DNA of 50,055 nucleotides. Source: a virus. The position numbers and the translations under genes were made by a program. Positions 38-32,200 of this stretch are shown in pieces. The notes beneath the pieces were generated by a model that made no database searches, was not told the DNA's origin, and saw nothing but the letters and a program-made list of their open reading frames with translations. How positions within the stretch are numbered: position 1 is the stretch's first letter; the number at the start of each line of letters is the position of its first letter. Location: positions 1-50,055 of the IMG/VR virus record IMGVR_UViG_3300031576_000069; one strand, given 5' to 3'.

Positions 38-373
38 TCAGGCCCTCGCCGCCTCGTGGAAGTTCATGGCCGCCAGGCACGGGTCCGAGACGCGGCCGAC
101 GTAGATGTGCCTCACGCCATCGCAGGTAAAGGCATGGCCGAGCACGTTCGTTCCGGAGTCCCCGGGCCGGTGTTTCGCGTGCTCGCGCGCGATCCACGCC
201 ACGGCCTCGGCCTTCGTGCGGAAGGTCTCGCCCCCGAGTTGGTTGGGATGCCCGTAGTCGTGGAACACGATGTACCGATAGCTCGGCATGTAGGGCGAGA
301 ACTGCGCGTCGTCCTTGATCCCGCGGTCCTCCCGCCTGAGCGGGACCATCAACGGCTTCGATCCCTTCTTCAT
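38..373 (-). CDS. Hypothetical protein, 111 aa
   Basis: No family recognised. The product is a soluble, His- and aromatic-rich protein with a central segment (TKAEAVAWIAREHAKHRPGD) typical of small phage proteins that carry a 'transfer-ID' type alpha/beta fold. The chosen ATG overlaps the stop of the upstream HAD-like gene as ATGA and follows GGAGG at about 9 nt. A longer in-frame start exists at 400 but would lie well inside the HAD gene. It is the second gene of the unit driven by the promoter at 786-814. Confidence 0.75.
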   Translation of the reverse strand: MKKGSKPLMVPLRREDRGIKDDAQFSPYMPSYRYIVFHDYGHPNQLGGETFRTKAEAVAWIAREHAKHRPGDSGTNVLGHAFTCDGVRHIYVGRVSDPCLAAMNFHEAARA

Positions 374-768
374 GACCTTGCCTCCTTTTGGATTCTCCAC
401 GCGGGCTTGATGCTCGCGAGCACGCGCTCGGCGTCCAGCCCCGCGTTCTCCGCCCGGAACGCCCGATCGTCGATGATGAGCGCCAGGTCCATGGGTTTCA
501 CCGCCGGATAGAACCCATCATAGTCGATGGCGTTCGCCACCAGCCAGGCCCTGACATCTGGGTGATCTCCCCGCGTGGTCCAGACCAGAACTTTGTGCCC
601 GGCCGCCCGCAGACGTGCGAGAGTCTCTTTGACCCCTGGCAATATCCTCCCTATTTTCCCGCCATCCCAGCCGGCATAATGGGCCATCGTTGCGTCGAGA
701 TCGACCAGGATTATTCCCGGCTTCTCCTCCGGCAGTCCGGTGGCCAGCGCCCCATTCTCGGTCGCCAT
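370..768 (-). CDS. HAD-like hydrolase / phosphatase, 132 aa
   Basis: Small haloacid-dehalogenase-fold protein. Motif I is DLDATMAH (Asp23 and Asp25 in the nucleophile/acid positions), motif II is VWTTRGD (around residues 62-68), the conserved Lys is in KPMDLALIIDD (Lys91) and motif III is the Asp pair at 100-101. All four catalytic positions are present, so activity as a small phosphatase is plausible; the substrate cannot be read from sequence. At 132 aa it is a minimal HAD without a cap domain. Start: ATG with GGAGG about 6 nt upstream and a near-perfect sigma-70 promoter ending about 18 bp upstream, so the leader is only about 10 nt. Confidence 0.8.
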   Translation of the reverse strand: MATENGALATGLPEEKPGIILVDLDATMAHYAGWDGGKIGRILPGVKETLARLRAAGHKVLVWTTRGDHPDVRAWLVANAIDYDGFYPAVKPMDLALIIDDRAFRAENAGLDAERVLASIKPAWRIQKEARS

Positions 769-785: not shown

Positions 786-814
786 ATTATAACTTAAATC
801 ATGATTCTTGTCAA
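786..814 (-). promoter_or_regulatory. Sigma-70 promoter with palindromic spacer (P1)
   Basis: On the minus strand TTGACA is followed after exactly 17 bp by TATAAT, a full consensus match. The spacer contains the perfect 10-bp palindrome AATCATGATT at 797-806. The same spacer register carries TCATGA-type palindromes in the promoters at 3838, 4571 and 6931. It drives the HAD-like gene starting at 768. Confidence 0.9.
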
Positions 815-822
815 TACTTAAA

Positions 823-1341
823 TTATACAAAAGCATACCTATACCCGGCGGCGATCTTGCTTATGAACACACGCCCCAATCCGAATCTGTCAGCTATAGA
901 TTGATGCGTCTTGCCATCTGTAAGCATTGCACGGATGCGATAGAGTTGCCTCTTGGTGATCTTGGCACGGCTATTGCGGTAGCCGCAATCGTGGGTCCCA
1001 TGTTGGTATTTGCGGGCGTGATTGTTGGACATGCTCTCCCATGCCAAATTCATGGGCTTGTTGTTGCGCCAATTACCATCGAGATGAGATGCTGTTTGGC
1101 CCGGCAACGGAACTCCATGGAATGCCTCACACACCAAACGGTGTACTCTGAAGTGCTTAAAACGACCGATTGCTATCCCTATTCCGACAAAGAAATAGCG
1201 ACCGCTTGATTGCACGGACTCCTTCAATCTGCGAGGAGTGTCGCGCAGGAATGCTCCGTGCTTCCTCAGCGAATATATGTGGCCATCGGATCCGGCGAAG
1301 TATCCTGCGGCCCGCGCTATCGGCAGAAGTGTAAGTCGCAT
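823..1341 (-). CDS. HNH homing endonuclease with C-terminal HTH, 172 aa
   Basis: Free-standing HNH endonuclease of the HNH_3 type. The core is HRLVCEAFHG followed by SHLDGNWRNNKPMNLAWE, with the His-Asn-(His) ligands of the betabeta-alpha-metal site, and a C-terminal helix-turn-helix (HQSIADRFGLGRVFISKI) that probably binds DNA. Such genes spread by cutting related phage genomes. The ATG at 1341 follows GGAGAA with 6-nt spacing; another ATG lies 12 nt upstream at 1353. The gene is visibly AT-richer than its neighbours, consistent with recent acquisition, and ends just before the promoter at 786-814. Confidence 0.82.
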   Translation of the reverse strand: MRLTLLPIARAAGYFAGSDGHIYSLRKHGAFLRDTPRRLKESVQSSGRYFFVGIGIAIGRFKHFRVHRLVCEAFHGVPLPGQTASHLDGNWRNNKPMNLAWESMSNNHARKYQHGTHDCGYRNSRAKITKRQLYRIRAMLTDGKTHQSIADRFGLGRVFISKIAAGYRYAFV

Positions 1342-1363
1342 GCTGTTCTCCATGAAAAGGGAG

Positions 1364-1416
1364 AGCCCCACCTGGTGACCCATGCGGGGCTCAAGGCCCT
1401 TCTGGCAGGTGGGGCT
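1364..1416. repeat. 11-bp inverted repeat upstream of the HNH gene
   Basis: AGCCCCACCTG (1364-1374) is perfectly complementary to CAGGTGGGGCT (1406-1416), with a 31-nt GC-rich loop. It lies in the noncoding stretch between the gene ending at 1478 and the HNH start at 1341. On the minus strand the stem is followed by a short pyrimidine run (CTCCCTTTTC), so it could act as a weak terminator or a translation-control hairpin directly before the HNH start. Nothing else is visible in 1417-1477. Confidence 0.55.
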
Positions 1417-1477
1417 AAATAGAAACAGCACGGCACACGGGTCACGGCGATAGATTAACATCGCCGACGCATCAACG

Positions 1478-1807
1478 TCAAGCGCCTGGCGAGCGCTTTG
1501 CCGCGACGACACCGATTTTCCCTCCAGGAGTCGGCAAACCATTCCAACCATTGAGCCGCCCTGGCTCGCGATAGCCGTCCTTCATGCGCACGGTGCCGAA
1601 CGCGTAGAACACCGCCCGGGCGTTGACCTCCTCGGCCTTGGCGCGCGTGCGGTCCACCCAGGCCAGCGCCTCGGCGTGCGTGTCGAACGGTCCGACCAGG
1701 AAGGCGGTCCGGCCGGCGTCCCGGGCCGACGTGTAGTACCCGCCGTTCTCGCCATCGTGGCTCGCGCCACAAGGGCACCCCACCGTGGCCACCATTGTGG
1801 CGGTCAC
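1478..1807 (-). CDS. Hypothetical protein, 109 aa
   Basis: No family recognised. The N-terminus carries a CPCG pair and the middle reads like a small alpha/beta domain with THAEALAWVDRTRAK, a pattern also seen in the 111-aa product at 38-373 (TKAEAVAWIAREHAK), so the two may be distant paralogues. The start is a GTG overlapping the upstream stop as GTGA. It is the last gene of the unit beginning at 3816. Confidence 0.75.
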   Translation of the reverse strand: MTATMVATVGCPCGASHDGENGGYYTSARDAGRTAFLVGPFDTHAEALAWVDRTRAKAEEVNARAVFYAFGTVRMKDGYREPGRLNGWNGLPTPGGKIGVVAAKRSPGA

Positions 1808-2280
1808 GCGACCCCCGTCGGCTTCGGCTCGATCCAGACCTTAACGGCGTCGCGCCCAGGCATCTTCCGCGTGCGGATCCGCTTCTCGGCCGCGGCCTGG
1901 CGCCAGCGCGCGCTCTCGCGCTCGGATGCCTTCTGTGCCGCGTACTCCCCGGCGTGGTAGAGCGCGTTGAGCATCCAATACCGACCGGTGGAGTCCAGCG
2001 CGGCGAGCGCGGCCTCGACCGTCAGGTCGAGATCGAAGCGCTCGTCGCCGCTCCCGTGCCGGACCAGTACGGCGAGGTCCGCGTGCCGACCCTCCCTGAT
2101 CTTGACGACCCGGTAGTGAAAGGAGTGCGAGTCGAGACCGCCGCATCTGCCGGGCTCGTCGTGCAACAGCTTCTCCCCCTCCTTCAGGTCCGGGGGATTC
2201 ACCTTGCGAACGTGCGTGCCCTTGCCATCCCACGAGTACCCTGGCTCTCCGTTCTTCACCGGCTTTCCGCACATGCACAT
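1804..2280 (-). CDS. Hypothetical protein with N-terminal Cys cluster, 158 aa
   Basis: The product begins MCMCGKPVKNGEPGYSWDGK, a CxC start that could be half of a zinc knuckle with the later RCGG. The C-terminal half is charged and helical (AAQKASERESARWRQAAAEK). The start follows GGAGGGAGTC closely. It sits between the LPD29 protein and a small Cys-containing protein. Function unknown. Confidence 0.75.
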   Translation of the reverse strand: MCMCGKPVKNGEPGYSWDGKGTHVRKVNPPDLKEGEKLLHDEPGRCGGLDSHSFHYRVVKIREGRHADLAVLVRHGSGDERFDLDLTVEAALAALDSTGRYWMLNALYHAGEYAAQKASERESARWRQAAAEKRIRTRKMPGRDAVKVWIEPKPTGVA

Positions 2281-2297
2281 GACTCCCTCCTTGAAAG

Positions 2298-3311
2298 CTA
2301 CTTCCGCCCCACGAGCAGATAGCTGAAGAACCCACTGTAGTCACCGCCATCGTCGTCCAGGCGCTCGATCCCCTTGGTCAGGTTGGCGCCGGCCGTGAGC
2401 CGCCGACCCACGTCGCCGAGGTCCCAGGAGTGTCCACCGGTCGGCTCGGTGAACTGCGCCTTCAGGTCCACGCCCTCGGGACCCACCGGCCACTCCGGAC
2501 CGTCCTTGAACTTGAAGGCGAACCGCGTGAGCACCAGCGCCGCCGCCTCGTGCACGAAGTGCGCGGACACCTCCCGGCTCACGAATGTGTAGCCCGCGCT
2601 CCCGAACACCTCGATCCACGCGTTGTGCCGGTAGGTGGTGCTGTCGTCCATGCCGTCGAAGTCCTTGCCCTGGTACTTGTCCACGATCGCGTCGACCTCC
2701 TTGCTCGGCGGACCGTCCGTCCACCCCACGTTGAGATTGTCGCCCCCGCTGTAGCGCTCGGTCTTGACCGAGAACTTGACCCCCGGGTATTTCGCCGCCA
2801 GTTCCTTCCGCACGTTCTTGGCCGCCGTCGTCAGGTGGTTCTGATTTGTCTCACTCAGCGGGAGCAGGTCCTTGTGCTCTGCCTTCAGCCGCGCGATCTC
2901 CTTCCGGTGGGCCTCCGCGCTCGCCATCTTGACCTCCTCGTCGGCCTTGACCTTCGCCTTGTTTTTCTCGACCAGGTCGAGGACCTCGTCGCCGGTGAGC
3001 ACACGCTCGGTGAGAAAGAAGTGCTGGCTATGCCAGACGCCCGGATCCGACTCGGCCTTGATCGAGTCGGCCTCGACGCGCGTGGAGCCGAAGTCCTCGA
3101 GGCTGATCACCTCGTAGCTCACGGTCTCCGCACCCCACCCCGTCGTGTGCGCGACCCTCCGAACGACCGCGTAATCCTGCGCGTGCCAGGCCATGTTGCC
3201 GCCCCAGTGCAGGACCATCCCGGCCGGCAGGTTGTTCTTGAGGCTGTTGGCCGGGACGTCGATCTTGACCAGGCCGCCGCCCTTCCCCATCTCGTATCGT
3301 TCTGTTCTCAT
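2298..3311 (-). CDS. LPD29-domain-like protein, 337 aa
   Basis: The middle of the protein (about residues 155-225) matches, from memory, the large polyvalent protein-associated domain 29: a helix with KNVRKELAAKYPGVKFSVKT, then RYSGGDNLNVGWTDGPPSKE and DKYQGKDFDGMDD. This domain occurs in phage and conjugative-element accessory proteins, often combined with other modules; its biochemical role is unknown. The N-terminal part is a beta-rich domain followed by a charged helix (about 118-150). The ATG is preceded by GAGGA at about 9 nt. It lies in the left-arm unit with other small unknown genes. Confidence 0.75.
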   Translation of the reverse strand: MRTERYEMGKGGGLVKIDVPANSLKNNLPAGMVLHWGGNMAWHAQDYAVVRRVAHTTGWGAETVSYEVISLEDFGSTRVEADSIKAESDPGVWHSQHFFLTERVLTGDEVLDLVEKNKAKVKADEEVKMASAEAHRKEIARLKAEHKDLLPLSETNQNHLTTAAKNVRKELAAKYPGVKFSVKTERYSGGDNLNVGWTDGPPSKEVDAIVDKYQGKDFDGMDDSTTYRHNAWIEVFGSAGYTFVSREVSAHFVHEAAALVLTRFAFKFKDGPEWPVGPEGVDLKAQFTEPTGGHSWDLGDVGRRLTAGANLTKGIERLDDDGGDYSGFFSYLLVGRK

Positions 3312-3323
3312 AGTGGTGTGTCC

Positions 3324-3515
3324 TCAGTAGTTCCCGAAAAACTGTCCGATCTGGGAGGCCGGGCTTCCCATGGCCACGAAGTAGACGGGCTCTCCCCCCC
3401 TCAGCTTCAGCAGTCGGCGCATCTCCCTCTTGCTCCCCTCGGCTACGATCAGGCCCGGCAGTTTGCCGCCAGGATCGCGCTTGACCAGCTTGTAGAGTAG
3501 GCTCCTTGGAATCAC
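3324..3515 (-). CDS. Hypothetical protein, 63 aa
   Basis: Small basic protein with no recognised domain. Start is GTG, overlapping the stop of the 41-aa gene upstream as GTGA, which indicates translational coupling. Confidence 0.65.
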   Translation of the reverse strand: MIPRSLLYKLVKRDPGGKLPGLIVAEGSKREMRRLLKLRGGEPVYFVAMGSPASQIGQFFGNY

Positions 3516-3637
3516 GGCCGCCTCCCCTGGGCGTTCGCGAGCATCCGCTCGCTGGGCACCAGGCCCGCCATCACCATCGCGGTCACAGGCCCCGGCTCCG
3601 GCCGCCGCCGTCTCAGCGCCTCCGGCTTCCGGGTCAC
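3512..3637 (-). CDS. Very small basic protein, 41 aa
   Basis: A short reading frame that starts GTG within a GTGA overlap with the stop of the 60-aa gene upstream and ends TGA within a GTGA overlap with the next gene. GGAG lies 7 nt before the start. The product is Arg/Pro-rich (RRRRPEPGP) with a hydrophobic middle. Support is position, RBS and the double coupling, not homology. Confidence 0.5.
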   Translation of the reverse strand: MTRKPEALRRRRPEPGPVTAMVMAGLVPSERMLANAQGRRP

Positions 3638-3816
3638 GATCCCGCTCCGGCCGTCGCGGTCTCCGCCTTCCGGGTCGGGGCGAACCCGCGAACCGGCTTG
3701 TAGGCGGGGAAGGTGCTCCCCCCCCGCATCTTCTTGGCGGCCGCCATGGCCGCCTCCACCAACTCCTCCACGAACTCGGCCGCCGCCGCCCGACCCGCCG
3801 CCCCGTGAGTTCTCAT
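3634..3816 (-). CDS. Hypothetical Ala-rich protein, 60 aa
   Basis: First gene behind the promoter at 3838-3866. The N-terminal half is an Ala/Glu helix (AAAAEFVEELVEAAMAAAKK), the C-terminal half is basic. A purine-rich GGGAGGGAGG run lies immediately before the ATG. No family recognised. Confidence 0.6.
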   Translation of the reverse strand: MRTHGAAGRAAAAEFVEELVEAAMAAAKKMRGGSTFPAYKPVRGFAPTRKAETATAGAGS

Positions 3817-3837
3817 TGCCTCCCTCCCTACACTAAG

Positions 3838-3866
3838 AGTATAGCATCCGTTATGACGCTTGTCAA
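3838..3866 (-). promoter_or_regulatory. Sigma-70 promoter with palindromic spacer (P2)
   Basis: TTGACA, 17-bp spacer, TATACT on the minus strand. The spacer holds CGTCATAACG at 3849-3858, a one-mismatch version of the palindrome in the other left-arm promoters, in the identical register (spacer positions 3-12). TGC precedes the -10, giving an extended -10. It drives the genes from 3816 downward. Confidence 0.88.
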
Positions 3867-3894
3867 GACCCAGGAAGGACCCAGGGGCGCCACA

Positions 3895-4533
3895 TCAGGA
3901 GCCCTCGCGGAGCACCATCTGCTCCTTCTTGAAGCTCTTGACACCGAAGAACTTGCGCGCGCAGTCCTCCCCTACCCAGGCCCCGTGGATCACGCCGTCC
4001 GCGCCCTTACCGGTCACGGGCACGAAGCGCCCGCTCGGGACCGCCTTCGCGCAGAGTTCGCATTCCCGATGGCCGGTCGTGGCGCCGTAGCGGCGAGCGA
4101 ACCGGCTGTCGAACTTCGTGCCCTTGGCCCACTGGACGATCCCGACCTGGCGCTCGACCGGCAGGATCGCGAGAACAAGGCCGTTCATCTCCCGGCTGAG
4201 ATTGGTCGCATCGCCGTGGTGGTTGTCCATCGAGCGCCGACTGGGGTCCATGTCCTTCGTCCGCCACGACCTGCCCTTGTGCGTCCAGGACACGCGCGGG
4301 CAGTTCGTGCACGTCTTGATGGTCTTGGACGCCCCGTTATTCCAGGCCTCCCAGCGGGGGACGGTCTTACCATTCAAGATGCCGACGCGGCCGTCGCCCT
4401 CGCAGACAGGGCACCCGGTCCAGACCTCTGTCGGGAGGACGCGCTTCTCCCACTCGATCTCCGCCAGGCCCCAATCCTCGGACTTCGTGCCCATCGCGGT
4501 CAGCGTCTCGAGTCCCTTCTCAGAGTGGTTCAT
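3895..4533 (-). CDS. Zinc-finger protein of unknown function, 212 aa
   Basis: Contains one probable four-Cys zinc site (CPVCEGDGR with CTNCP about 30 residues later) and a second Cys pair late in the protein (CELCAKAV). The C-terminal part (GAWVGEDCARKFFGV) resembles domains that display nucleic-acid-binding fingers. It is a single-gene unit directly behind the promoter at 4571-4599, and starts ATG after AGAGGAGAG. No enzyme motif was seen. Confidence 0.7.
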   Translation of the reverse strand: MNHSEKGLETLTAMGTKSEDWGLAEIEWEKRVLPTEVWTGCPVCEGDGRVGILNGKTVPRWEAWNNGASKTIKTCTNCPRVSWTHKGRSWRTKDMDPSRRSMDNHHGDATNLSREMNGLVLAILPVERQVGIVQWAKGTKFDSRFARRYGATTGHRECELCAKAVPSGRFVPVTGKGADGVIHGAWVGEDCARKFFGVKSFKKEQMVLREGS

Positions 4534-4570
4534 GTCGCTCTCCTCTGCGGCCTCCGTCCCCTACATCCTG

Positions 4571-4599
4571 AGTATAACATGGGTCATGACCGAAGTCAA
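4571..4599 (-). promoter_or_regulatory. Sigma-70 promoter with palindromic spacer (P3)
   Basis: TTGACT, 17-bp spacer, TATACT, with TGT before the -10 (extended -10). The spacer contains the perfect 10-bp palindrome GGTCATGACC at 4582-4591, in the same register as P1, P2 and P4. It drives the zinc-finger gene starting at 4533. Confidence 0.9.
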
Positions 4600-4602
4600 G
4601 AC

Positions 4603-4941
4603 CTATTTTCCAGCCATCCTTACCTTGACCATGTCCCGGAGCCTCCGGCACTTGGCGTCCTCGCAGTCGGGACCATCCGGGCAGACGCCGGAGAGCGCGT
4701 CATCGACCGAGCGCGCACCACTGGCCAAGAGATCGGAATCTCGCGCCAGGTCGCGGATGATCCATCCGCGGCTATCGTAGACGACACCGCACTGACAGAC
4801 GACGTCCTTGCCGTCGCCAAACATGCTCAGAGGCGCCTCCCCGCACGGGCAGTTGATCCTGCCCAGGGCTGGCCTCCCCGGCGGCACGTCCGGATCGCGC
4901 ACCCATGCCAGCTTCGTGAACCCGCTCGTCATGTCGGTCAC
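4603..4941 (-). CDS. Hypothetical zinc-ribbon protein, 112 aa
   Basis: CPCG and CQCG pairs about 20 residues apart suggest a zinc ribbon at residues 30-52; a further Cys trio lies in CPDGPDCEDAKC. The gene overlaps the upstream gene's stop by 4 bp and ends at the edge of promoter P3, so it is the last gene of the unit starting at 6909. Confidence 0.7.
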   Translation of the reverse strand: MTDMTSGFTKLAWVRDPDVPPGRPALGRINCPCGEAPLSMFGDGKDVVCQCGVVYDSRGWIIRDLARDSDLLASGARSVDDALSGVCPDGPDCEDAKCRRLRDMVKVRMAGK

Positions 4942-5471
4942 CCCCTCGCGGGCATCAAGAGCCCGATGTTCTCGCGCTTGCCCTTCCCTGGGCCGTTGAC
5001 GGCCTCGACGCGGTAGACCTTGACCTCGGGGTCCCCGTCCTTGTCGACCGGGATCCGGAGCCTGACCAGCCCGTCCGAACCGAGCGCGGCCGCCAGCTTG
5101 GCCAGCAGGTTGGCGTCGATAGCGATCTCGATCTCTGGCCGGTTCCGCTTGGGCACGAGGGCCACCCAGTTCGGGAACTGGCCGAGGTCCGGCCTGGGGA
5201 AGCTCGCGCCGCCCAGGGTGTCCTTGAGCACGCCATTGGCCTCGAGCGCGGCCATCGACATCTTGCGCCCGGACTTCCTTGCCGCCTTGAGGGCCTCGAC
5301 CGTGACCGGGCCGTCGACGTCCTTCTCATCGCGGTCGACCACGATCGCGGCGAGTATCTTGCCGTCCGTCGCGACCAACCTCTTGCCCAGGAGCCACGGC
5401 GACAACAGCGGCCGCCGCGTTTCGTCCTTCGAGGCCGCCTTCTCGATCTCGAACTCTGCCTGCAGGATCAT
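4938..5471 (-). CDS. Sliding-clamp-like (DnaN-type domain) protein, tentative, 177 aa
   Basis: The sequence has features seen in phage-encoded clamp-like proteins: VATDGKILAAIVVDR near the N-terminus (the 'TDG+ +A' strand of DnaN-type domains), a repeated strand-helix pattern, LAAALGSDGLVRLRIP and a C-terminal IGLLMPARG that resembles the closing strand of a clamp domain. At 177 aa it would form only one to two clamp repeats, so a scaffolding or inhibitory role is as likely as a true clamp. Start ATG overlaps the DUF7007-like gene's stop region by 4 bp. The assignment is by pattern only; a structure prediction would decide it. Confidence 0.5.
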   Translation of the reverse strand: MILQAEFEIEKAASKDETRRPLLSPWLLGKRLVATDGKILAAIVVDRDEKDVDGPVTVEALKAARKSGRKMSMAALEANGVLKDTLGGASFPRPDLGQFPNWVALVPKRNRPEIEIAIDANLLAKLAAALGSDGLVRLRIPVDKDGDPEVKVYRVEAVNGPGKGKRENIGLLMPARG

Positions 5472-6055
5472 CTCCCCCCCCTGACGAGGGCATGCCGCCC
5501 CTCGTCGATCACGAACGAACCGCGCGCCGGGTTGTCGTACTCCGCCTCCGGCACCAGGTAGTAAGCCGTCTCCGCCGGGTAGCGACCGCTCTCCAGGCGC
5601 CCGCCCCGGCCGGCGAACACCTCGACCATCCCCTCGGGCACCGGCCCTCCCGGGGTGGCCATCGAGCGCCACGCCCCCGATCCGGAGGCCGCGAGCGTGA
5701 TCATCCTCTCCTTGTTCTCCGCGCGGAAGATGTCCTCGTCGCGCACGTACGACTCGCCGGGCATGACCACCTTCCCGGTGAGCTTCTCGAAGTCCTCAGG
5801 CGCCCACGTGCGCAGGCTCTCCCTGGCGGCCTTCACCCGCTCGGGATCGAAGCGCTCCGGAAACGCGAGGATCACGCGCGCGTACTCGCAGTCCTCCTCA
5901 TACCACCCGCTCGGGAGCCTGAGCGCCTCCGGCATGAGCGCGTTCAACGTGGGCGAGACGTGGAATCCGCCATGACCGGCCGTACCGTAGAACACGATCC
6001 CGCGACCGTACGGCGTTGAATCCTGTGCCGGTCCCCACGGCGTTGAAGTCCCCAT
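5468..6055 (-). CDS. DUF7007-like protein, 195 aa
   Basis: Starts STPWGPAQDSTPYGRGIVFY and continues GTAGHGGFHVSP, then WYEEDCEYARVILAFPERF. This TPWG ... HGGF ... YEED pattern is what I recall for DUF7007, found in phage and plasmid accessory genes with unknown function. The ATG at 6055 follows GGAGG at about 9 nt and nearly abuts the preceding stop; a longer in-frame start at 6094 would overlap the upstream gene. Neighbours are a clamp-like protein and several small zinc proteins. Confidence 0.72.
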   Translation of the reverse strand: MGTSTPWGPAQDSTPYGRGIVFYGTAGHGGFHVSPTLNALMPEALRLPSGWYEEDCEYARVILAFPERFDPERVKAARESLRTWAPEDFEKLTGKVVMPGESYVRDEDIFRAENKERMITLAASGSGAWRSMATPGGPVPEGMVEVFAGRGGRLESGRYPAETAYYLVPEAEYDNPARGSFVIDEGRHALVRGGR

Positions 6056-6056
6056 G

Positions 6057-6209
6057 TTATTTTGCCTCCGCTTCTGATTTGTCGGCACCGGCATCCCTTG
6101 GCGGATGCACCCAGTACGTGCCCCCCAGTGGATAATGGCCCGAGTGCGTCCAGCGAACCAACGCTACTTTGCAGATTGAGCATAGCGGCGACGCCTTGAC
6201 CCTCGCCAT
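6057..6209 (-). CDS. Small CxxC protein, 50 aa
   Basis: Short reading frame with CSIC near the N-terminus. GGAGG lies about 9 nt before the ATG; the gene fits exactly between the stop of the 59-aa gene (1 nt gap) and the start of the DUF7007-like gene. Probably a small zinc-binding or redox knuckle; no family recognised. Confidence 0.6.
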   Translation of the reverse strand: MARVKASPLCSICKVALVRWTHSGHYPLGGTYWVHPPRDAGADKSEAEAK

Positions 6210-6210
6210 G

Positions 6211-6390
6211 CTATGCCACCTCCTGTGTCCAGACGATCATGCCCTTCTCGTCCACGATGTAGGCCGCCACACGTCCGGCCCCGCGTTCGCGTTCGTACTT
6301 CTTGAGGCGCTTCACCGTCGCCACGAGCGTACGCCCGCTCCCGATGGGATCGCCTCCGAATTTGAACCTCGCTACGTATAGCTTGGCCAT
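6211..6390 (-). CDS. Hypothetical protein, 59 aa
   Basis: Small alpha/beta protein (MAKLYVARFKFGGDPIGSGR..., ending EKGMIVWTQEVA). A strong AGGAGG precedes the ATG by about 8 nt. The pattern of strand, Lys-rich helix (VKRLKKYERERGAG), strand, strand suggests a single compact domain. Function unknown. Confidence 0.65.
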   Translation of the reverse strand: MAKLYVARFKFGGDPIGSGRTLVATVKRLKKYERERGAGRVAAYIVDEKGMIVWTQEVA

Positions 6391-6391
6391 G

Positions 6392-6736
6392 CTAGGCCAC
6401 CTCCTTTTTGTTCCTGCACCAAAAACTTGTCACTGACCCTGCGCGGCCGGACTTGCGGACATCGTACGAGCAGTATCCATCGGGCTGGGCTGGCACCGGC
6501 GATCCGTTCGGCCATTTCTGGCGCTTGGCCGCCTTGCCGCATTCCGGGCACCTCGGGCCCCAGATTCGGTCCGCGAGCGCGTGCTCATCGTTCTGCAGGA
6601 GGTGAGCCTCCGCCCAGGCCTCGCCGTCCTCGATCAGCGTGTCGAGCGCGAGAGCGAGCACGACCTCTCGGTCCGAGTCGTAGGCCAGCTTCGAGTGCTC
6701 CGCCTTCAGGATTCTGACCGCCTTTCGCATTGCCAT
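6392..6736 (-). CDS. Hypothetical protein with CPECG zinc motif, 114 aa
   Basis: Helical N-terminus followed by GPRCPECGKAAKRQKWPNG, then YCSYDVRKSG and a late WCRNKK, consistent with a four-Cys zinc ribbon. The ATG at 6736 overlaps the upstream stop (TGATG) and follows AGGGAG by 8 nt; a GTG at 6745 is an alternative. Confidence 0.7.
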   Translation of the reverse strand: MAMRKAVRILKAEHSKLAYDSDREVVLALALDTLIEDGEAWAEAHLLQNDEHALADRIWGPRCPECGKAAKRQKWPNGSPVPAQPDGYCSYDVRKSGRAGSVTSFWCRNKKEVA

Positions 6737-6909
6737 CAGGACCACTCCCTGGCCGCGTTCTCGGCGGCCATCACCGCCGTCTTGATCCGCTCGGCCCGGG
6801 CCTTGCTGGCGCCCATCTTGCCGTCGGAGAGAACGCCCAGGCGTGCGACCATTGCCATTGTGAACATGCCGACGAGGACCGCCACCTTCCGCCCGCTCTC
6901 GCTTTTCAT
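6736..6909 (-). CDS. Small membrane-like protein, 57 aa
   Basis: First gene behind promoter 6931-6959. AGGAGG lies 6 nt before the ATG. A short hydrophobic segment (VAVLVGMFTMAMVARLGVL) could cross the membrane; the rest is a charged helix. The longer frame back to 6966 cannot be used because it would run through the promoter. Confidence 0.65.
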   Translation of the reverse strand: MKSESGRKVAVLVGMFTMAMVARLGVLSDGKMGASKARAERIKTAVMAAENAAREWS

Positions 6910-6930
6910 GGGCTCCCTCCTGACACCCAT

Positions 6931-6959
6931 AGTATAGCTTTCGTCATGACGGTTGTCAA
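6931..6959 (-). promoter_or_regulatory. Sigma-70 promoter with palindromic spacer (P4)
   Basis: TTGACA, 17-bp spacer, TATACT on the minus strand. The spacer carries the perfect palindrome CGTCATGACG at 6942-6951, same register as P1-P3. It drives the run of genes from 6909 to 4603 (membrane protein, zinc proteins, DUF7007-like, clamp-like). Confidence 0.9.
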
Positions 6960-7040
6960 GGCCCAAAATAGGCCTACTCCGCCGCCGCGCGAATGCGGCT
7001 ACGTGGGGGACTCAGGCCCGAATGGGCCGGTCAGATGAGT

Positions 7041-7259
7041 CTAGCGCGTGTTGTCGGCAGGTGGGGCAGGGGGTTCTGCGCGATCTGGCCCTTGGCGCTG
7101 GTCACCGCGCAGAATGCGCAGGATGCGCTCGCCGATATGCCCGAGCGGGCGCAGACGCCAGACGTAGGCCACGGCCTGGACGGCCGCGTTTACGACCTCC
7201 GGGTGATCGCGCTTGTTGTAGGGACCGCGCTTACGCCGTTTGCGCCACCATCTGCGCAT
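7041..7259 (-). CDS. Basic hypothetical protein, 72 aa
   Basis: Highly basic N-terminus (RRWWRKRRKRGPYNK) and a helical middle; possibly nucleic-acid binding. No clear RBS; the gene follows the putative holin-like gene by about 45 bp and is the last of the lysis block before P4. 6960-7040 otherwise shows nothing. Confidence 0.5.
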   Translation of the reverse strand: MRRWWRKRRKRGPYNKRDHPEVVNAAVQAVAYVWRLRPLGHIGERILRILRGDQRQGPDRAEPPAPPADNTR

Positions 7260-7846: not shown

Positions 7847-8251
7847 TCAGCGTCTGATCTCGGCCTTCCATAGGAGATCGAGTTCGCGCTCGCTCGCCCC
7901 CCTCTCCTCGAGGACCACCGGCAGGGGGGCCCCTCCCCCGGGAGGCAAACGGGCCGCGCGGTCTACGACGCGCTCGAGCGCGCTCGCCCGGTAGACCTTG
8001 ATGCGCGCCGGGCACACCAGGGCTCGGACCGCGGATGGCAGGAGCAGTCCGGCCAGCCCCGGGCACTCGCGCTCGACCCACCACAGGCCGTAGACAGGGG
8101 AGCACGCCCTGCCGGCGGCCTCCGCGCGCTCGCGCCAGTACGCGGCCTCGCCCGCGGTGCCGACGCGGGCCCTGGCGCTAGCGCACCAGGTGGCGACCGC
8201 CAGGCCGGCCGCGAAGGCGATCGACGTCCACGCCGGGCCGCGCATACCCAT
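7847..8251 (-). CDS. Membrane-anchored protein, possible spanin-like, 134 aa
   Basis: An N-terminal hydrophobic segment (TSIAFAAGLAVATWCASARA) is followed by about 105 periplasm-like residues with helical charge pattern and four Cys. Topology (short cytoplasmic end, one TM, external domain) and position between lysis genes fit an inner-membrane spanin subunit, but no family was recognised. The ATG overlaps the upstream stop (TGATG). Confidence 0.5.
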   Translation of the reverse strand: MGMRGPAWTSIAFAAGLAVATWCASARARVGTAGEAAYWRERAEAAGRACSPVYGLWWVERECPGLAGLLLPSAVRALVCPARIKVYRASALERVVDRAARLPPGGGAPLPVVLEERGASERELDLLWKAEIRR

Positions 8252-8391
8252 CAGCCGCCACCCCCGCCGTCAACCCGCCGGCGGAGCCCGTGCGGGCGCA
8301 CGCGCGCCATCGCGCTCACCGCGCGCTCCGCCACGCGCTTGGCGATCTCGATCAGGAACGCGAGGGCCAACTGCCAGAGTATCCCTAGCAT
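8251..8391 (-). CDS. Small single-TM protein, 46 aa
   Basis: MLGILWQLALAFLIEIAKRV forms one amphipathic-to-hydrophobic helix, followed by an Arg-rich tail ending in a Gly run. GGGGA lies about 5 nt before the ATG, and the stop overlaps the next start. Small basic-tailed TM proteins in this position are often holin or antiholin candidates. Confidence 0.55.
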   Translation of the reverse strand: MLGILWQLALAFLIEIAKRVAERAVSAMARVRPHGLRRRVDGGGGG

Positions 8392-8408
8392 GATTCCCCG
8401 GATGCCCC

Positions 8409-8924
8409 CTAGAACCCGACGCTGACGATGAAGCCGAGCCAGTCCCGCCAGTCGTCCCAGCGGAACCTGTCGCCAGGGAGCGGCATCTTGACCTGGGGGC
8501 CGAACCACATGGGCGGGAACACCGTGCGCCGCAGGTGCGCGCGCGACCACTCCGAACTCCAGAGTCGGCCGCTGAGAGCCGGGAGGTTGGCGTCGATGGT
8601 CAGTAGGGGCCGCATGTTCTCCCCCTGCTTGATCGCCCCCCCGAGCCCGAACTCAAGGTAGTCCCGCATGGGATCGCGCACGGGCTTGCCGTCCTGGCCG
8701 GATTCGTACTTGCCGTGGAAGGTCCACACCGGTAGGTAGGCCCCGGCCGCGACTTCGCCCTCGAAGTTCACGAGCCCGCACGCCTTGCCCTCCTTGGCCT
8801 TCTCGGCCGCCAGGGAGGCCAAGCCGGGTATGCTCAGCAGGTCCGTCGCGCGCGCCGGCGCCGTCAGCGCCGCCATCAGCGTGCACCCCATCATCACCGC
8901 CATCCGCATCATCTTGTTCACCAT
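8409..8924 (-). CDS. Secreted, possibly outer-membrane beta-barrel protein, 171 aa
   Basis: Clear Sec signal peptide (MAVMMGCTLMAALTAPARAT, cleavage near residue 26). The mature part has alternating strands (DYLEFGLGGAIKQGE, PLLTIDANLP, FIVSVGF) and ends in Phe, the usual terminal residue of proteins inserted by the BAM machinery. A small phage-encoded outer-membrane protein could block superinfection or aid release. No family recognised; the barrel reading is inference from the strand pattern and C-terminus. Confidence 0.6.
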   Translation of the reverse strand: MVNKMMRMAVMMGCTLMAALTAPARATDLLSIPGLASLAAEKAKEGKACGLVNFEGEVAAGAYLPVWTFHGKYESGQDGKPVRDPMRDYLEFGLGGAIKQGENMRPLLTIDANLPALSGRLWSSEWSRAHLRRTVFPPMWFGPQVKMPLPGDRFRWDDWRDWLGFIVSVGF

Positions 8925-8957
8925 CGTGTCGATCCTCCGTGATCCGGCATGAGCCGG

Positions 8958-9509
8958 TTATCCTGCGGGTGTGTCCTCGATTCCGGTCAGCGCGGCGGCC
9001 AAGCTGGCGTAGAAACGCGGCCACGGGAAGCCCGCGGGGTCGGTCTTGCGCTGGGGGGCCACATGCGCGTGGCCTACAACATTCCCGGCGTTCAGACCGT
9101 AGCGGCGGCAATCGCGCGCGCACAGCGAGAGCACGGTCTCAAGTTGGACCTCCGGATAGGGGTCCGCGCCGGTGTTCGAGTTCTCGATCTCGATGCCGAT
9201 GCTCCGCTGGTTGAGCGCGCCACGGCCTTGCCAGATACTGTTGCCGGCGTGCCATGCCTCGTCCTCGTCGTTGACCAGGCGCACGATCCGCCCGTCCTTG
9301 GCGACCACCAGGTGGGCGCTAGTAGGGTTCTGTCGGTCCGCTTTGCAGAGCCAGGAGATAGCGCCCTCGAACGCGCCGGCCGTGGCGTGCAGGACGATCA
9401 GATCGATGGGCATGCGCCGAGGTCCCCGCCGGTTAGGGCTCGGCCGCTGTTCCTCCGGAGCAAGGATCCTCGGCGTGATGAACACGAAGGGCTCTGGCTT
9501 GTCGTTCAT
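8958..9509 (-). CDS. N-acetylmuramoyl-L-alanine amidase (Amidase_2 endolysin), 183 aa
   Basis: Cleaves the amide bond between muramic acid and the peptide stem. Zinc ligands: His41 in LIVLHATAG and His147 or His149 in VVGHAHVAP, with KTDPAGFPW (Lys155, Asp157) completing the active site; SAHLVVAKDGRIVRLV is the core strand pair. One catalytic domain, no cell-wall binding domain. The N-terminus has no signal peptide, so it needs a holin. The ATG overlaps the stop of the 69-aa membrane gene (ATGA). The longer reading frame upstream is out of place. Confidence 0.93.
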   Translation of the reverse strand: MNDKPEPFVFITPRILAPEEQRPSPNRRGPRRMPIDLIVLHATAGAFEGAISWLCKADRQNPTSAHLVVAKDGRIVRLVNDEDEAWHAGNSIWQGRGALNQRSIGIEIENSNTGADPYPEVQLETVLSLCARDCRRYGLNAGNVVGHAHVAPQRKTDPAGFPWPRFYASLAAALTGIEDTPAG

Positions 9510-9715
9510 TTCGGAGGCTCTTTTTGGCTCCAGAGTAGATGCCCGCAAACGAACCCGAGCGCGAACGGGATCGCGGGATGGGCGTGCGCCCACGCGAGCA
9601 CGATCTCGCTGATGGTATCGCCCGCCACGGGCGTGCTCGCCACGTAGATGTCCCACACGATGAGCGCGGCCACGGAGCCCATGACGATCATCTTCGTCGC
9701 CTTCTGGGTGTTCAT
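9506..9715 (-). CDS. Two-TM holin-like protein, 69 aa
   Basis: Two hydrophobic segments (IVMGSVAALIVWDIYVA and HPAIPFALGFVCGHLLW) separated by a short loop GDTISEIVLAW. This is the layout of small class II holins and matches a phage membrane protein family often found next to amidases. Directly precedes and overlaps the amidase gene. Confidence 0.7.
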   Translation of the reverse strand: MNTQKATKMIVMGSVAALIVWDIYVASTPVAGDTISEIVLAWAHAHPAIPFALGFVCGHLLWSQKEPPK

Positions 9716-9731
9716 CGTCTCCTCCCGTGTT

Positions 9732-9869
9732 CAACTTGGACGATCATCGACTGGCCTCGATGCCCGCCGATGGCGCGCGGTTTTCTCTCGGGGTGATGAT
9801 CCCAAGTGCCGCCAGTGCTATCAGCGCTAGGACGAGCACAAACCAGCCGGTTACGACACGCTCCAGCAC
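9732..9869 (-). CDS. Small TM protein at the start of the lysis block, 45 aa
   Basis: One hydrophobic helix (GWFVLVLALIALAALGII) followed by a basic tail (ENARHRRASRPVDDRPS). GTG start with GGAGG 6 nt upstream. An in-frame ATG at 9896 would lie at or near the predicted transcription start of promoter 9901-9923 (a possible leaderless 54-aa version). The gene fits the gap before the holin-like gene exactly. Confidence 0.6.
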
Positions 9870-9900
9870 GGGAATCCTCCATGATTTATAGTTCATCCTC

Positions 9901-9923
9901 AGTATAACAGTTCGATGTCGAAC
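9901..9923 (-). promoter_or_regulatory. Extended -10 promoter with 14-bp palindrome (lysis block)
   Basis: TGTTATACT on the minus strand gives an extended -10; no convincing -35 is found at 16-18 bp. Immediately upstream lies GTTCGATGTCGAAC (9910-9923), a 6+2+6 palindrome that overlaps where RNA polymerase would sit. This suggests a regulated promoter, either repressed at the palindrome or activated by a protein. The palindrome is unlike that of P1-P4. Confidence 0.6.
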
Positions 9924-9955
9924 GGGAGCATCTTCGCCGTCAGGGTCAGGTTCCG

Positions 9956-10651
9956 TTAGACTATTCTCAGCACGCGGTTCGCGGGCAGGAACGTGCTCCC
10001 GATCTTGGTGTCGCCGATCGTCTGCGCGTCCACGGAGTTAAGGCGCAGGCGGTCCGCGAACTTGGTGGTCATCCTGATGAGGTCGCCGGGAGAGCGATCC
10101 GCGTCGAGCGCGACCGAGACGGTGATCGTGCCAGCGATCTTGTCCACGGCGCGAATCTCACCCACGTCCTGGTCGGCGACTTTGGCCCACGCTCCGGGGA
10201 ATGCGTTGTCGAGCACGGTCGGCGAGACAGCGAGCACGGTCTCCCCCGCTGGCTCAGTGGCGACCAACGCCCCGATGACTGTGTCAGGTGCACCCAGGAC
10301 ATCCACCTCGTCGCCGATCGATGCCTCCGGCGGGAAATACGTACCGGCCATGATGCTCACTGGGTAGGGCCAAGAGATGTCGAACGGAGCAGGATCCGCT
10401 AAGGCTGGGACCGCTATCTGGAATGTCCGGCACCGGAAGCGCCCGCCCGTGTTCGATTCCAGCGCCTCCTCACGGATGGAGGCCTCGATCGAGCCTGAGA
10501 TAATCGAATCGATGACGAGCGTTTTCGAGTGGTCGAGCGCGTGAGCCGCATTGTGCGGGCACGCCGCTGGCTCTGCCTCCTCCCATGTCGTGAGGTAGGC
10601 CTGCTCGACGTTGCAGTAGACTCTGAACTCGAATAGGCGTTTTTCGTTCAT
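9956..10651 (-). CDS. Virion-associated protein of the tail region, 231 aa
   Basis: Beta-rich protein (N-terminal domain with CNVEQAYLTTWEEAEPAACP; C-terminal domain with repeated ADRLRLNSVDAQ-type strands). No family recognised. It is the last gene of the 30-kb late unit and starts within TAATG of the fibre gene, so it is probably a tail or receptor-related component. Confidence 0.65.
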   Translation of the reverse strand: MNEKRLFEFRVYCNVEQAYLTTWEEAEPAACPHNAAHALDHSKTLVIDSIISGSIEASIREEALESNTGGRFRCRTFQIAVPALADPAPFDISWPYPVSIMAGTYFPPEASIGDEVDVLGAPDTVIGALVATEPAGETVLAVSPTVLDNAFPGAWAKVADQDVGEIRAVDKIAGTITVSVALDADRSPGDLIRMTTKFADRLRLNSVDAQTIGDTKIGSTFLPANRVLRIV

Positions 10652-11610
10652 TACTGTAACCCGAAAGCCACCACGTAAACGTCCGTGAAATCAGTGAGTT
10701 GACCACTTCGAATCCGCGTCTCGATGGTGATCGAGCCCGCCGCCTGGCTGGTCAAGAACGTCATCGTGCCGTCGGAACTGGAGGATCTGTTTGCCGTGAT
10801 GAACACGCAGTAATTCGCGTTCGTGAAATCCGTATCCCAGGTGATGGTGTACTGGCCGGTGGCATTGCGAACGACGGACGTGATGTTGAGCGAGCCGGTG
10901 ATCGCCCCGTTGGATCCGGTGAACTTGACCCACGCCTTGGCGGAGGATTCCTTCGTGATCTGGTTCGCTGTCGGGGGCGCGTTCGCCGTGCCCGAGATGT
11001 TGATCCGCCCGGCCGTGATCTCCGACGCCGGGTTCGAGAAGTCGGGGATGTCGAGCAGGAACCCCCGTGCGTCCTCGAAGTCTACTAGAACGGCCGCATC
11101 AAAGAGCGCGAAACCGCCACCCTGCTCGACTAAGAGATTGAGGCGAACAGTCGTTGCTCCTGCGGCGACCAGTTGAGTCACCTCAAGGAGTTGGTAGGCC
11201 CCGCTACCAGAATGGAACGCGGATACCGTGGTCGCAACGCCGTCGGTTATCTGCAGGCGCGCGATATTCGGAGTAGATGTCTTGACCCAGCACCAGGCCT
11301 TGACGAAACGGCTCTTGAGCGATTTGAATTCGTAGGCGTCCTGACGAAGTCGAGCCTGAGCCGAAGCCCCCGAAGTCACTTTAACAGCGAGTGCACTCCT
11401 CTTGCTATCGGCATCGGAGGCTGAGATGGCTCCGACGCCGTCGAGCGTCCAGGAAACCGGCGTCGGCCCCGAGAAGGACTCGAAGTCTCCATTGCGAATG
11501 AGGCTCAAGTGCGCGAAGTTCAAGAATTTGAAATTGTCGTTCCACTTCGACGCCGATGGGATCTCGCTCTCGGCGTCGACAAAGATGTGCGGAAGTCCGG
11601 TCGTTCCCAT
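10651..11610 (-). CDS. Tail fibre / receptor-binding protein, 319 aa
   Basis: Begins GLPHIFVDAESEIPSASKWN, the PSA.W.DNF type N-terminus of phage fibres that attach to the tail tip. The middle is a carbohydrate-binding-like beta-sandwich (residues about 40-180, SGSGAYQLLEVTQLV...). The C-terminal 110 residues (KAWVKFTGSNGAITGSLNIT, GQYTITWDTDFTNANYCVFI) match a module common at the tips of phage fibres. One nucleotide overlaps the hub gene upstream. Likely determines host binding. Confidence 0.8.
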   Translation of the reverse strand: MGTTGLPHIFVDAESEIPSASKWNDNFKFLNFAHLSLIRNGDFESFSGPTPVSWTLDGVGAISASDADSKRSALAVKVTSGASAQARLRQDAYEFKSLKSRFVKAWCWVKTSTPNIARLQITDGVATTVSAFHSGSGAYQLLEVTQLVAAGATTVRLNLLVEQGGGFALFDAAVLVDFEDARGFLLDIPDFSNPASEITAGRINISGTANAPPTANQITKESSAKAWVKFTGSNGAITGSLNITSVVRNATGQYTITWDTDFTNANYCVFITANRSSSSDGTMTFLTSQAAGSITIETRIRSGQLTDFTDVYVVAFGLQ

Positions 11611-18273: not shown

Positions 18274-18291
18274 CTTGGTCCTCCCCCTTCT

Positions 18292-18630
18292 TTAGTTATC
18301 GTCCTCGGGCTTGTCGCGCCTGTTCTCAAGGCGTTCGCGCATCTTATCAAAAGCCTTGCGCAAGTCATCGAGATGCGTCTCCAGCCGCGACAACGTGATC
18401 TGCAAATCGGCCTTGGTCGCGAACTTCTCGACGAGGGATATGCGCTCATCGTTATAGTGCTCGATAAACTCGTCTTTCCAGCGCCAGAGCGCGCTCAGAC
18501 TGCTGACCTTGCTCTGGAGGTACATATTCCAGCCCGTGAGCGCCAGCGCGACCAATCCGGCATAGATCGCCAGGTCCTTGGCCGTCATGGGCGCGGATAC
18601 GGGAGAGATCACAATCTGATCAGGATACAT
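18292..18630 (-). CDS. TM plus coiled-coil protein, 112 aa
   Basis: One hydrophobic segment (LAIYAGLVALALTGWNMYLQ) followed by a coiled coil (TKADLQITLSRLETHLDDLR, then KMRERLENRRDK). The pattern resembles XhlA-type or phage membrane-anchor proteins, but its position inside the tail cluster is unusual for one. ATG overlaps the upstream stop. Confidence 0.65.
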   Translation of the reverse strand: MYPDQIVISPVSAPMTAKDLAIYAGLVALALTGWNMYLQSKVSSLSALWRWKDEFIEHYNDERISLVEKFATKADLQITLSRLETHLDDLRKAFDKMRERLENRRDKPEDDN

Positions 18631-19094: not shown

Positions 19095-19127
19095 GCTCGC
19101 CCAGCCTCCTCTATCCGATCAAGTGCG

Positions 19128-23261: not shown

Positions 23262-23280
23262 CGTGCTCGTCCTCCCCTGC

Positions 23281-29030: not shown

Positions 29031-29297
29031 TCAGCCGTCTCTTGATGGCTCGGTCCCCTGCGCATGCGCAGGCGGGTGGGGAACCCGACTTGGTCCCGAG
29101 CCGCGTTGGCTGTCGGACTCACGGTGGCGGGCGAGTTGCTCGGCCGCGAGCGCGAGTCCTTGTGCATGGCGGGCGATCTGCCGGAGCAGACGCATCTCAC
29201 CGCTCATGTCCCCGTCATTGTATCTCTGGATCATGAATTCGTCAAGGGGTCGTTCCTTCCGCTGGCGGCGTTTCCGACGGCGATTGCGCTCGCTCAT
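29031..29297 (-). CDS. Hypothetical basic helical protein, 88 aa
   Basis: Starts MSERNRRRKRRQRKERPLDE, then a helix (MRLLRQIARHAQGLALAAEQ) and a Pro/Ser-rich tail. AGGAGG lies 9 nt upstream of the ATG. It begins inside the 3' end of the polyprotein gene and ends just at the beginning of the capsid reading frame (stop TGA overlaps a CTG of that frame). Possibly a small DNA- or RNA-binding capsid cofactor. Confidence 0.55.
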   Translation of the reverse strand: MSERNRRRKRRQRKERPLDEFMIQRYNDGDMSGEMRLLRQIARHAQGLALAAEQLARHRESDSQRGSGPSRVPHPPAHAQGTEPSRDG

Positions 29298-32200
29298 GAG
29301 CGGTGGCCTCCTGCCCCCGACTCGTATCCAAGGCGTCTTTCTGCCCACTGCGCGTCCGCAACCAGGTCTCTGACCCAGCCCACAGGGTGATCCCCTCTGC
29401 GGCCGCGACATCCTGCTCAGACTGGTTCCTGAAGTCAGTCCACCACCCGCCTTGGCCTCCGCCGAGGTCGTAGCCGTAGCGCCCGCTCTTGAGCACGGCG
29501 CCCGCGCTCTCCCGGCGGAAGCGCGTGATCAGCGCCACGGCCTGGCCGCGGTTGCTCGCCAGGGCGTGCTCCACAGGGCGAACGTGCTTGCCCGCTCGGA
29601 TCCTGGCGAGGAAGGTCGCCGCGCGCACGAAGTCCGTGCGGTGCACGTCCCGCCCGTCTATCCAGAGGATGTCGCTCACTGTCAAGCGCAGGCCGGCGTC
29701 GATCGCCGGGTCGTTGGCACCGGACTCGATGTAGCTGGCGATCTCGCCGCGCGCGCGGCGCGCGCCCTCCACCAAGAGTTCGAGCGTCGCCTCGGCCACG
29801 AAGTCGGAAGGTTGGGCCAGGAGTCCCTCCCACACGGAGGTCATGAGATTGACGTCCACGACCAGACCGCGCTCGTCCTCGATCTCGAGCCGGTCTCCCA
29901 CCTTGTTGACGAACAGGCGCACGCCCTCGATAAGGGGCTCCACCCGCACGGGGAAGTCCTCGGCCTCGAGGTACCGCACGGCCGTGGACGGACGGTTGGG
30001 CTCGTCGCCTGCGCGCGTCCCCGGCTGAGGGCTCGCGTAGAAGTAGGAGCGGAATGGCTCGACCTGGTCGGCGCTGGCACTCGCACGCGCTTCCCGGAGA
30101 GCCTCGGGCACGAGTTCGCCCACGAAGTTCCCGCCCATGACGCGGCTCATGCGCTGGATTTCCCGCTCCTCGGCCGGACGCACGCTGACCACCAGGTCCG
30201 CGATAGGGATGTGATTCGCGGTCGGGTTCTTCATCTCGGCGATGAGGTTGAGCGTCCACTCCGGAGGCAACTGCCCCTTGATCCTGGTGGCGAGGTCGCG
30301 AAGGAACTCCGCGTCCTGGGCCGGCCAGTTGACCCAGAGGTCGAGGTTAGCGCCATTGCCCTCGATGGGCAAACCGCCCACGATCGACAGGAATGGCTTG
30401 CGCAGGGTTATCGGCGTGGTGAGCACGCCCGCCGCCTTGGCGAGCCCGATCTCGGCCGCGGCGTACTTCTCCGTCAACTGGTCGAGCATGTCCTTCGGGC
30501 GGTGCTCGAGCCCCCGGCGTTGCATCTCGCGCAGTATCCGCGCGTGGCGGTCGACCACGTCCTGTGGGTGCTCCTCGCGCCGGTCGGTCCAGGCGTCCTC
30601 CCACTCGCGGTGGATGGTCCCGTGCGCGACCACGAGTTCCATGTTGCTGAGATCGGCAAGATTCAGGTCGAAGGCCTCCGTCGCATTGTCCGCGTAGCGC
30701 AGGTCACCAATCCCTGTCTGCGGGGCCGAGACCTTGCGCGCGCGCTCGAGGCGGATGAACTCGCGCACGGGGTATACCCAGACGGAGTGCCCTCGCCTGG
30801 GCATGGCCGCAATCTGCTCGGAGGTCAGGCCCATCCTGGACCCGTGGATTTCCAGGGCTTCGCCGATGGACGCGGTATTGATCTCGGTCGGCGCCGCATG
30901 GCGAACAAAGCCAACGAGATGGCCCTGGTGGACCACGCCGTTGAAAGCGTTGGCCAGACCCTGGACTTGTTCGGGGTATGCGCTCGCCCGCATCTTATTC
31001 GGAGAGGCCGCCGACGGGAGAGCGATAGCCTTGTCGACAAGGCGTGTGAGAGCGCGCCGGAGTAACTCCGCCGAAGCCCCTGCGGAGTTGATGGTCGTCA
31101 GCGGAGCCTCATCCTTGATCTCGAACGTGGTCTTGCCACGGCGAATGATCTCGCGCACGATCGCGGTCGCGAAGTCCTCGACGGCGTTGGCGTCCTTGAA
31201 CTCGGTACGCCCGCCATTGGCCATGATCGCGAACTTGTCGGCCACGAGACGCCAATCATCGGCGAGTTGCTCGTCCGTCAGCTTCGCCGCGTCGTATCCG
31301 TCGAGTACGAACTGCTCGATGGGCTCCCCGGCCGCTGGGCACTCGGCGGCGCCGGTGCATGGCTCGCCGATCGCGCAGGCGTCACAGCACGGCGGCCGCG
31401 GGCCCGCCTCGGCTACCGGTGCGGGCGTGATCTTGCCCGTGCCCTCGCAGATCGGGCAGAGCACGAAGTGCCAGCCGTCCTCGGCGTGCTTGCGCTCCTC
31501 GGCGAGCACCCACCGGCGCATGAGTTCCGTATCGGTCTCGAGCGGGGACTCGACCATATCCGCCCGTGGACTGGCATCGCTGGTCGCGCCCTTGATGGGC
31601 ACCCAGCCGGTGCCCTCGCACAGCCATTTGCAGATCGTGTTCGGGTCTGGGAGCGGGATGCCCAGCGCTTGGTAGCGGTCGCTGAACTCGAAGGCGGCGA
31701 GGAGGCGGGTGTGCTCGAACTCCTGCCCGGTGGCCAGGCGGTAGTAGAGGCGCCCGGCTCGGCGGTTGACGCGGGAGGACTGGACGAGACGGCGGTATGC
31801 GGGTGTACCGGCGGGCGGAGCCTGCGCCGGATCGTCAGCGGTTAGGGCTCGGGCTCGTCCTTCTTCGGGATGTAGAACCCTCGCTCCATCGACTTCGTCA
31901 GGGCATCGTCGAGGTCCCGCGAAGCCTTCTTCAACTCCTCTGGCGAGAGTCCTTTTTTCGGACTCTTGGGCTCCTCTCCCGGCGAGTTCTGCGGCTTTTT
32001 TTTCGGCATTTCCGATGTACTTCCTGGCGACGGGCTTAAAGCGCTCGATCGCCTGCTGGACCTTCCGCGATGTGGCGGACCCCAGCCCACTCTTAGTATA
32101 ACGGAAGTCACCTCGCTTGTCAAGGCTTATTTCCCGTGGTTTGGTCGTGCTCCCTGGTTGACGATCCGGGTTCTCGAACACCCTGATCTTGACCCTTGGA

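Follow-up and report, generated by a model that had tools for sequence, protein, structure and literature searches.

Promoters P1 to P4 and the genes behind them

IMG/VR record IMGVR_UViG_3300031576_000069 is a virus DNA of 50,055 bases with 65% GC, and this whole stretch is the window of our analysis. All recognised genes, including those for terminase, portal, capsid and tail proteins, are carried by the minus strand. In the left arm lie four near-consensus sigma-70 promoters, P1 to P4, in each of which a 10-bp palindrome around TCATGA occupies spacer positions 3-12, with one mismatch in P2. A preliminary description made from the sequence alone had reported the four promoters with 17-bp spacers, and in them three perfect palindromes and one with a single mismatch, all with the same core and register. 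Its coordinates, spacer lengths and palindromes proved correct, and the strand, which it did not give, is minus. The features are:

786..814, minus strand: P1, TTGACA-AGAATCATGATTTAAGT-TATAAT, 12/12 consensus positions, 17-bp spacer
797-806, minus strand: P1 spacer palindrome, AATCATGATT
370..768, minus strand: gene behind P1, 132 aa, phosphatase-like; PHROG 1238, phosphoheptose isomerase, E 4e-12
3838..3866, minus strand: P2, TTGACA-AGCGTCATAACGGATGC-TATACT, 11/12, 17-bp spacer
3849-3858, minus strand: P2 spacer near-palindrome, CGTCATAACG, 4/5 pairs
3634..3816, minus strand: gene behind P2, 60 aa, without a family match
4571..4599, minus strand: P3, TTGACT-TCGGTCATGACCCATGT-TATACT, 10/12, 17-bp spacer
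4582-4591, minus strand: P3 spacer palindrome, GGTCATGACC
3895..4533, minus strand: gene behind P3, 212 aa, cysteine-rich (CPVC, CTNC, CELC), without a family match
6931..6959, minus strand: P4, TTGACA-ACCGTCATGACGAAAGC-TATACT, 11/12, 17-bp spacer
6942-6951, minus strand: P4 spacer palindrome, CGTCATGACG
6736..6909, minus strand: gene behind P4, 57 aa, without a family match

By inspection of the sequence, a start codon lies 17-37 nt past the end of the -10 box at all four promoters, the ATG of the next gene following the P1 -10 box by 17 nt. The palindrome is exactly 10 bp long in P1, P3 and P4, and a sixth pair is absent in all four. The gene behind P1 has a second, weaker match to PHROG 415, polynucleotide kinase (E 3e-4). 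The chain downstream of the P2 gene includes an LPD29-domain gene (2298-3311), and that downstream of the P4 gene a DUF7007 gene (5468-6094). P1 itself falls in a segment (about 780-1346) that is AT-rich within this GC-rich genome and also contains an HNH endonuclease gene (in open reading frame (ORF) 823-1551); a second HNH gene is found at 41740-42366.

Chance, symmetry and ancestry of the spacer palindrome

The arrangement of palindrome within promoter is real and clearly beyond chance. A scan for the combined pattern was run as TTGACA-N4-TCATGA-N7-TATAAT with at most 3 mismatches; it gave 4 matches in the window and 0 in 100 dinucleotide shuffles. Under a first-order Markov model, 0.16 promoters matching at least 10/12 consensus positions with a 17-bp spacer are expected per 50 kb and 6 were observed (the promoter listing for 8000-28000 rests on one scripted scan). 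For promoter-like sites that also carry, at the register, a palindrome with 4/5 or more pairs, the expectation falls to 0.05 per 50 kb, against 4 observed, and no more than 1 palindromic promoter-like site appeared in any of 120 simulated Markov sequences.

The word TCATGA was rejected as a genome-wide signal, its count in the window being at chance level (13 observed, 9.9 expected). Slight enrichment was seen for GTCATGAC with one mismatch (28 versus 19.9 expected), and perfect 10-bp palindromes are mildly above expectation (101 versus about 75). Because TCATGA alone is at chance level and 10-bp palindromes are only mildly raised, the signal is the palindrome in a fixed promoter register rather than the word. 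The same counts bear on the idea that TCATGA is a DNA methylation or restriction site, with methylation controlling the promoters. TCATGA is indeed a known restriction-enzyme recognition word, but P2 does not contain it, its frequency in the window shows neither excess nor deficit, the left-arm genes include no recognised methyltransferase, and complementary outer pairs would not be required; we consider this explanation highly improbable.

The outer pairs of the palindrome vary across P1-P4 (AA/TT, CG/CG, GG/CC and CG/CG, respectively) and are nevertheless complementary in 8/8 pair-cells. The probability of this is 1.5e-5 under equal base use, a figure that is somewhat overstated because P2 and P4 have the same outer pairs. 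When symmetry centres were scanned across each promoter, starting upstream of the -35 box and ending past the -10 box, a single strong centre was found, the same in all four promoters. Identity among the flanks of P1-P4 is mostly near background, at 13-21 of 50 bases upstream and 14-28 of 50 downstream, and self-BLAST of the window gave no match joining P1-P4, that is, no duplication there. Since the outer pairs differ yet remain complementary while the promoter flanks are unrelated, the symmetry itself appears to have been selected.

This pattern is what makes shared ancestry an unlikely account. One strong promoter could have been copied to four places together with its spacer, leaving the palindrome as a relic without a regulator. 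Such an origin would fit the upstream GGTC/GGCC and some bases past the -10 box that are common to P2-P4, as well as the highest of the downstream identities, that of P2 and P4 (28/50), which is above background. Neutral decay, however, would break pairs, and here the outer pairs differ but stay complementary, while the other spacer positions and most of the flanks have diverged to background.

As a viral background, IMG/VR was scanned for TTGACA-N5-CATG-N8-TATAAT, which returned at least 120 stretches with 94 distinct spacers. Complementary outer pairs numbered 25, 23, 28, 23 and 16 in these spacers, against 23.2, 24.9, 25.7, 28.2 and 21.7 predicted from column composition, and only 2 of the 94, all with CATG at the register, reached four further complementary pairs. 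The idea that phage promoter spacers are generally palindromic at this register was therefore rejected, as the 94 spacers pair no more than composition predicts; for the same reason the palindrome is not explained by the sites simply being phage promoters.

A candidate operator family and its regulator

We consider it probable that the P1-P4 palindromes are operators of one regulator with two-fold symmetry, which would switch four accessory operons together by blocking RNA polymerase. P1-P4 would be promoters of the host sigma-70 type for four short accessory operons, probably early or host-takeover operons, each with its operator at roughly -27 to -18, counted from the expected start. A symmetric dimeric protein bound there, between the -35 and -10 boxes, would exclude RNA polymerase, and the four operons would stay silent until the regulator is absent or removed. 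From these sequence features we infer protein binding, repression rather than activation, and one protein for all four sites. Repression is favoured because the boxes are near consensus and the 17-bp spacer is optimal.

Spacer length also bears on a MerR-type activator, which would twist the spacer and for which the palindrome would mark activation. Promoters of the MerR family have the operator between the -35 and -10 boxes, where the palindrome sits here, and their spacers are long, at 19-20 bp. All four spacers in P1-P4 are instead 17 bp, and with that optimal length and boxes near consensus no activation would be needed, which leaves very little room for a MerR-type mechanism.

A weaker putative site in P2-P4 lies 12 bp upstream of the spacer palindrome, overlapping the -35 box on almost the same helical face. 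The candidate copies are degenerate:

3862..3869, minus strand: putative operator copy at P2, GTCTTGAC, overlapping the -35 box, centre 12 bp from that of the spacer palindrome
4595..4602, minus strand: putative operator copy at P3, GTCTTGAC, overlapping the -35 box
6955..6962, minus strand: putative operator copy at P4, GCCTTGAC, 2 mismatches, overlapping the -35 box

The triplet before the -35 box can be paired with the TGAC of that box, as in GTC-TTGAC (P2 and P3), GCC-TTGAC (P4) and GTA-TTGAC (P1), and the triplets are complementary to TGAC at 10/12 positions, with a post hoc nominal p of 4e-5. Because the pairing was spotted in hindsight and the triplets of the four promoters lack independence, we regard the second copy as suggestive. 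If it is genuine, two dimers could sit side by side in P2-P4, about one helical turn apart. We entertain, tentatively, an as yet unknown class of small phage regulators that would act at dispersed accessory promoters, each with two tandem sites of 8-10 bp at a distance of 12 bp; one site would lie in the spacer and the other be part of the -35 box, whose bases would then be read by both repressor and sigma factor.

Several results weigh against the operator reading. The P2 palindrome has a mismatch in its core. No DNA-binding regulator was recognised by Pfam in the left-arm genes and 77 further ORFs, nor by PHROGs among the 25 of 48 families listed for the 77 ORFs. No relative with the same set of four sites was found in our searches of viral sequences: back-translation scans of viral contigs with the protein of the P3 gene or the capsid protein gave no close relative; a two-row capsid alignment gave three distant relatives at 30-36% identity, whose records hold no promoter of the P1-P4 type; and the DNA around P4 had no significant match in phage records. 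The regulator could be a diverged phage protein, a protein whose gene is absent from this record or a host or prophage protein. A check of the record for a terminal repeat or circularity gave no end repeat. A 72-aa basic protein is encoded at 7041-7259.

The possibility of a host or prophage protein would make the palindromes operators of a host or resident-prophage regulator that the phage uses as a sensor of cell state. It would agree with the failure to recognise a regulator within the window. On the other hand, the strict motif in a promoter setting, limited to the GTCATGAC form that P3 and P4 have, turned up at only 3 sites, in unrelated taxa, among 84,980 GTDB species genomes. As the strict motif is this scarce, no such host regulon was seen in the sampled genomes, and we regard a host or prophage regulator as a fairly remote prospect. 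The strict motif was found at the register in 5 viral contigs, and a literature search for GTCATGAC as an operator returned nothing relevant among the best-ranked 25 of 357 papers.

The preliminary description had read the palindromes as a family of operators for a single regulator, perhaps with its gene outside the window, that switches small accessory units together. That proposal stands as the best-supported reading of the sequence, given the covarying flanks of the palindrome, its fixed register, the unrelated surroundings, the single site per operon and the lack of a recognisable regulator in the window. The accompanying claim, that so compact an operator is rarely found within a spacer, is not supported: unrelated viral promoters have other palindromes at this register, repressors as a rule overlap the polymerase site, and published Aca operators lie without exception in the core promoter.

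Other promoters and comparable systems

The P1-P4 palindrome is absent from the late (40151), lysis (9901) and replication (46963) promoters, as had been noted before. Two points qualify this: the lysis promoter contains a dyad of its own, and a promoter-like site at 29217-29245 has a shifted TCATGA. The latter and one further site were excluded from the P1-P4 family, their resemblance being weak and doubtful:

32095..32123, minus strand: doubtful fifth site, TTGACA-AGCGAGGTGACTTCCGT-TATACT, 11/12, in the 1529-aa ORF 29242-33831; right half TGAC only, no palindrome
29217..29245, minus strand: doubtful related site, TTGACG-AATTCATGATCCAGAGA-TACAAT, preceding the capsid genes; TCATGA offset by one base to the left, flanks without a palindrome; missing from the preliminary description

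The dyad in the lysis promoter spacer is a perfect 14-bp GTTCGA-TG-TCGAAC (9910-9923) just upstream of the -10 box, has no other exact copy in the window, and may be a separate operator. In the replication promoter (46963-46992, minus strand) the spacer has ATCA-TCG-TGAT, the P1 half sites set three bases apart. The promoter-like sites that precede the capsid genes (29217-29245) and the terminase genes (40151-40179), both on the minus strand, have TACAAT and TACACT boxes and a common 11-mer, TTGACGAATTC, whose only two exact window copies these are; they possibly form a separate late promoter class.

How common spacer operators are was gauged in viral contigs with GACATGTC, a control palindrome picked only for equal composition and sought at the same register. 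It was found in 11 viral contigs, some of them near-copies, versus 5 for GTCATGAC, and the ten control contigs inspected are plausible promoters. The downstream ORFs translated in contigs L012, L013, L016, L017 and L020 are unrelated small genes, and four of these five (all except that of L013) are preceded by nearly the same operator, TGTGACATGTCAC. Viral promoters whose spacer operator is close to TGTGACATGTCAC lie in L012 (7034-7062), L016 (755-783), L017 (5507-5535), L019 (8049-8077), L020 (5062-5090) and L021 (4002-4030). These promoters would represent a second, more widespread spacer-operator family. The unusual point about the present record is that a single genome has four good copies; among the further viral records that were searched, close matches are single or nearly so.

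Three viral or clostridial contigs (L008, 4108-4136; L028, 1112-1140; L132, near 12301) have GTCATGAC or GCCATGGC at the same spacer register, with a second copy of the palindrome just after the -10 box. The small proteins encoded downstream start with MSPRTGRP or MSPKTGRP; one of the three matches a Pfam ribbon-helix-helix family above the curated cut-off and the other two are assigned by sequence resemblance. These genes are probably autoregulated and offer an independent precedent for a palindrome at this register. Their promoters share with P1-P4 a CATG-centred 8-bp palindrome at spacer positions 4-11 (GTCATGAC in P3 and P4, ATCATGAT in P1, one mismatch in P2), whereas P1-P4 have no second copy after the -10 box and no such family among the genes behind them.

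Repressors in Escherichia coli generally overlap the RNA polymerase site (PMC4280137). Closer parallels come from phages. Aca repressors act at an inverted repeat in the core of strong, early-type promoters; in published Aca operators one inverted repeat is always within the core promoter, and sometimes there is a second, similar repeat (PMC9410906). P1-P4 are likewise strong sigma-70-like promoters of small accessory phage genes with an inverted repeat in the core promoter. However, a helix-turn-helix aca gene in the operon is a feature of the Aca systems, and no such family was found by Pfam in the left-arm genes and 77 further ORFs; here, moreover, one site is common to four separate promoters.

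In prophage SPbeta, the 15-bp SPBRE motif lies in the promoters of several phage genes, mostly of unknown function, and is bound by the master repressor MrpR (PMC10516654). What P1-P4 share with SPBRE, compared by description, is that a single element recurs in several promoter regions of the same phage. A recombinase-fold protein like MrpR was not recognised here by Pfam or among the listed PHROG families, in a record that may be incomplete. Cluster A mycobacteriophages have one phage-encoded repressor with many operators or stoperators, some of them inside early promoters; these sites are 13 bp long, asymmetric, oriented with transcription, present in 20-30 copies per genome and mostly outside promoters (PMC6550527). 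The present element differs as a 10-bp palindrome in four copies, all in promoter spacers, with other TCATGA words at chance frequency.

Because the Aca, stoperator and ribbon-helix-helix classes each fail at least one tested feature, we assign P1-P4 to the general kind of a repressor operator inside a phage promoter. They are a new case of well-known gene control, and since such control is already well known the general importance of the finding is moderate. If the operator reading is true, it would offer a sequence handle on the coordinated control of phage accessory genes, whose functions are mostly unknown, and would lead directly to the missing regulator, as any protein that binds NNTCATGANN. 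It would also mean that operators in single metagenomic phage genomes can be recognised from flank covariation within promoter spacers.

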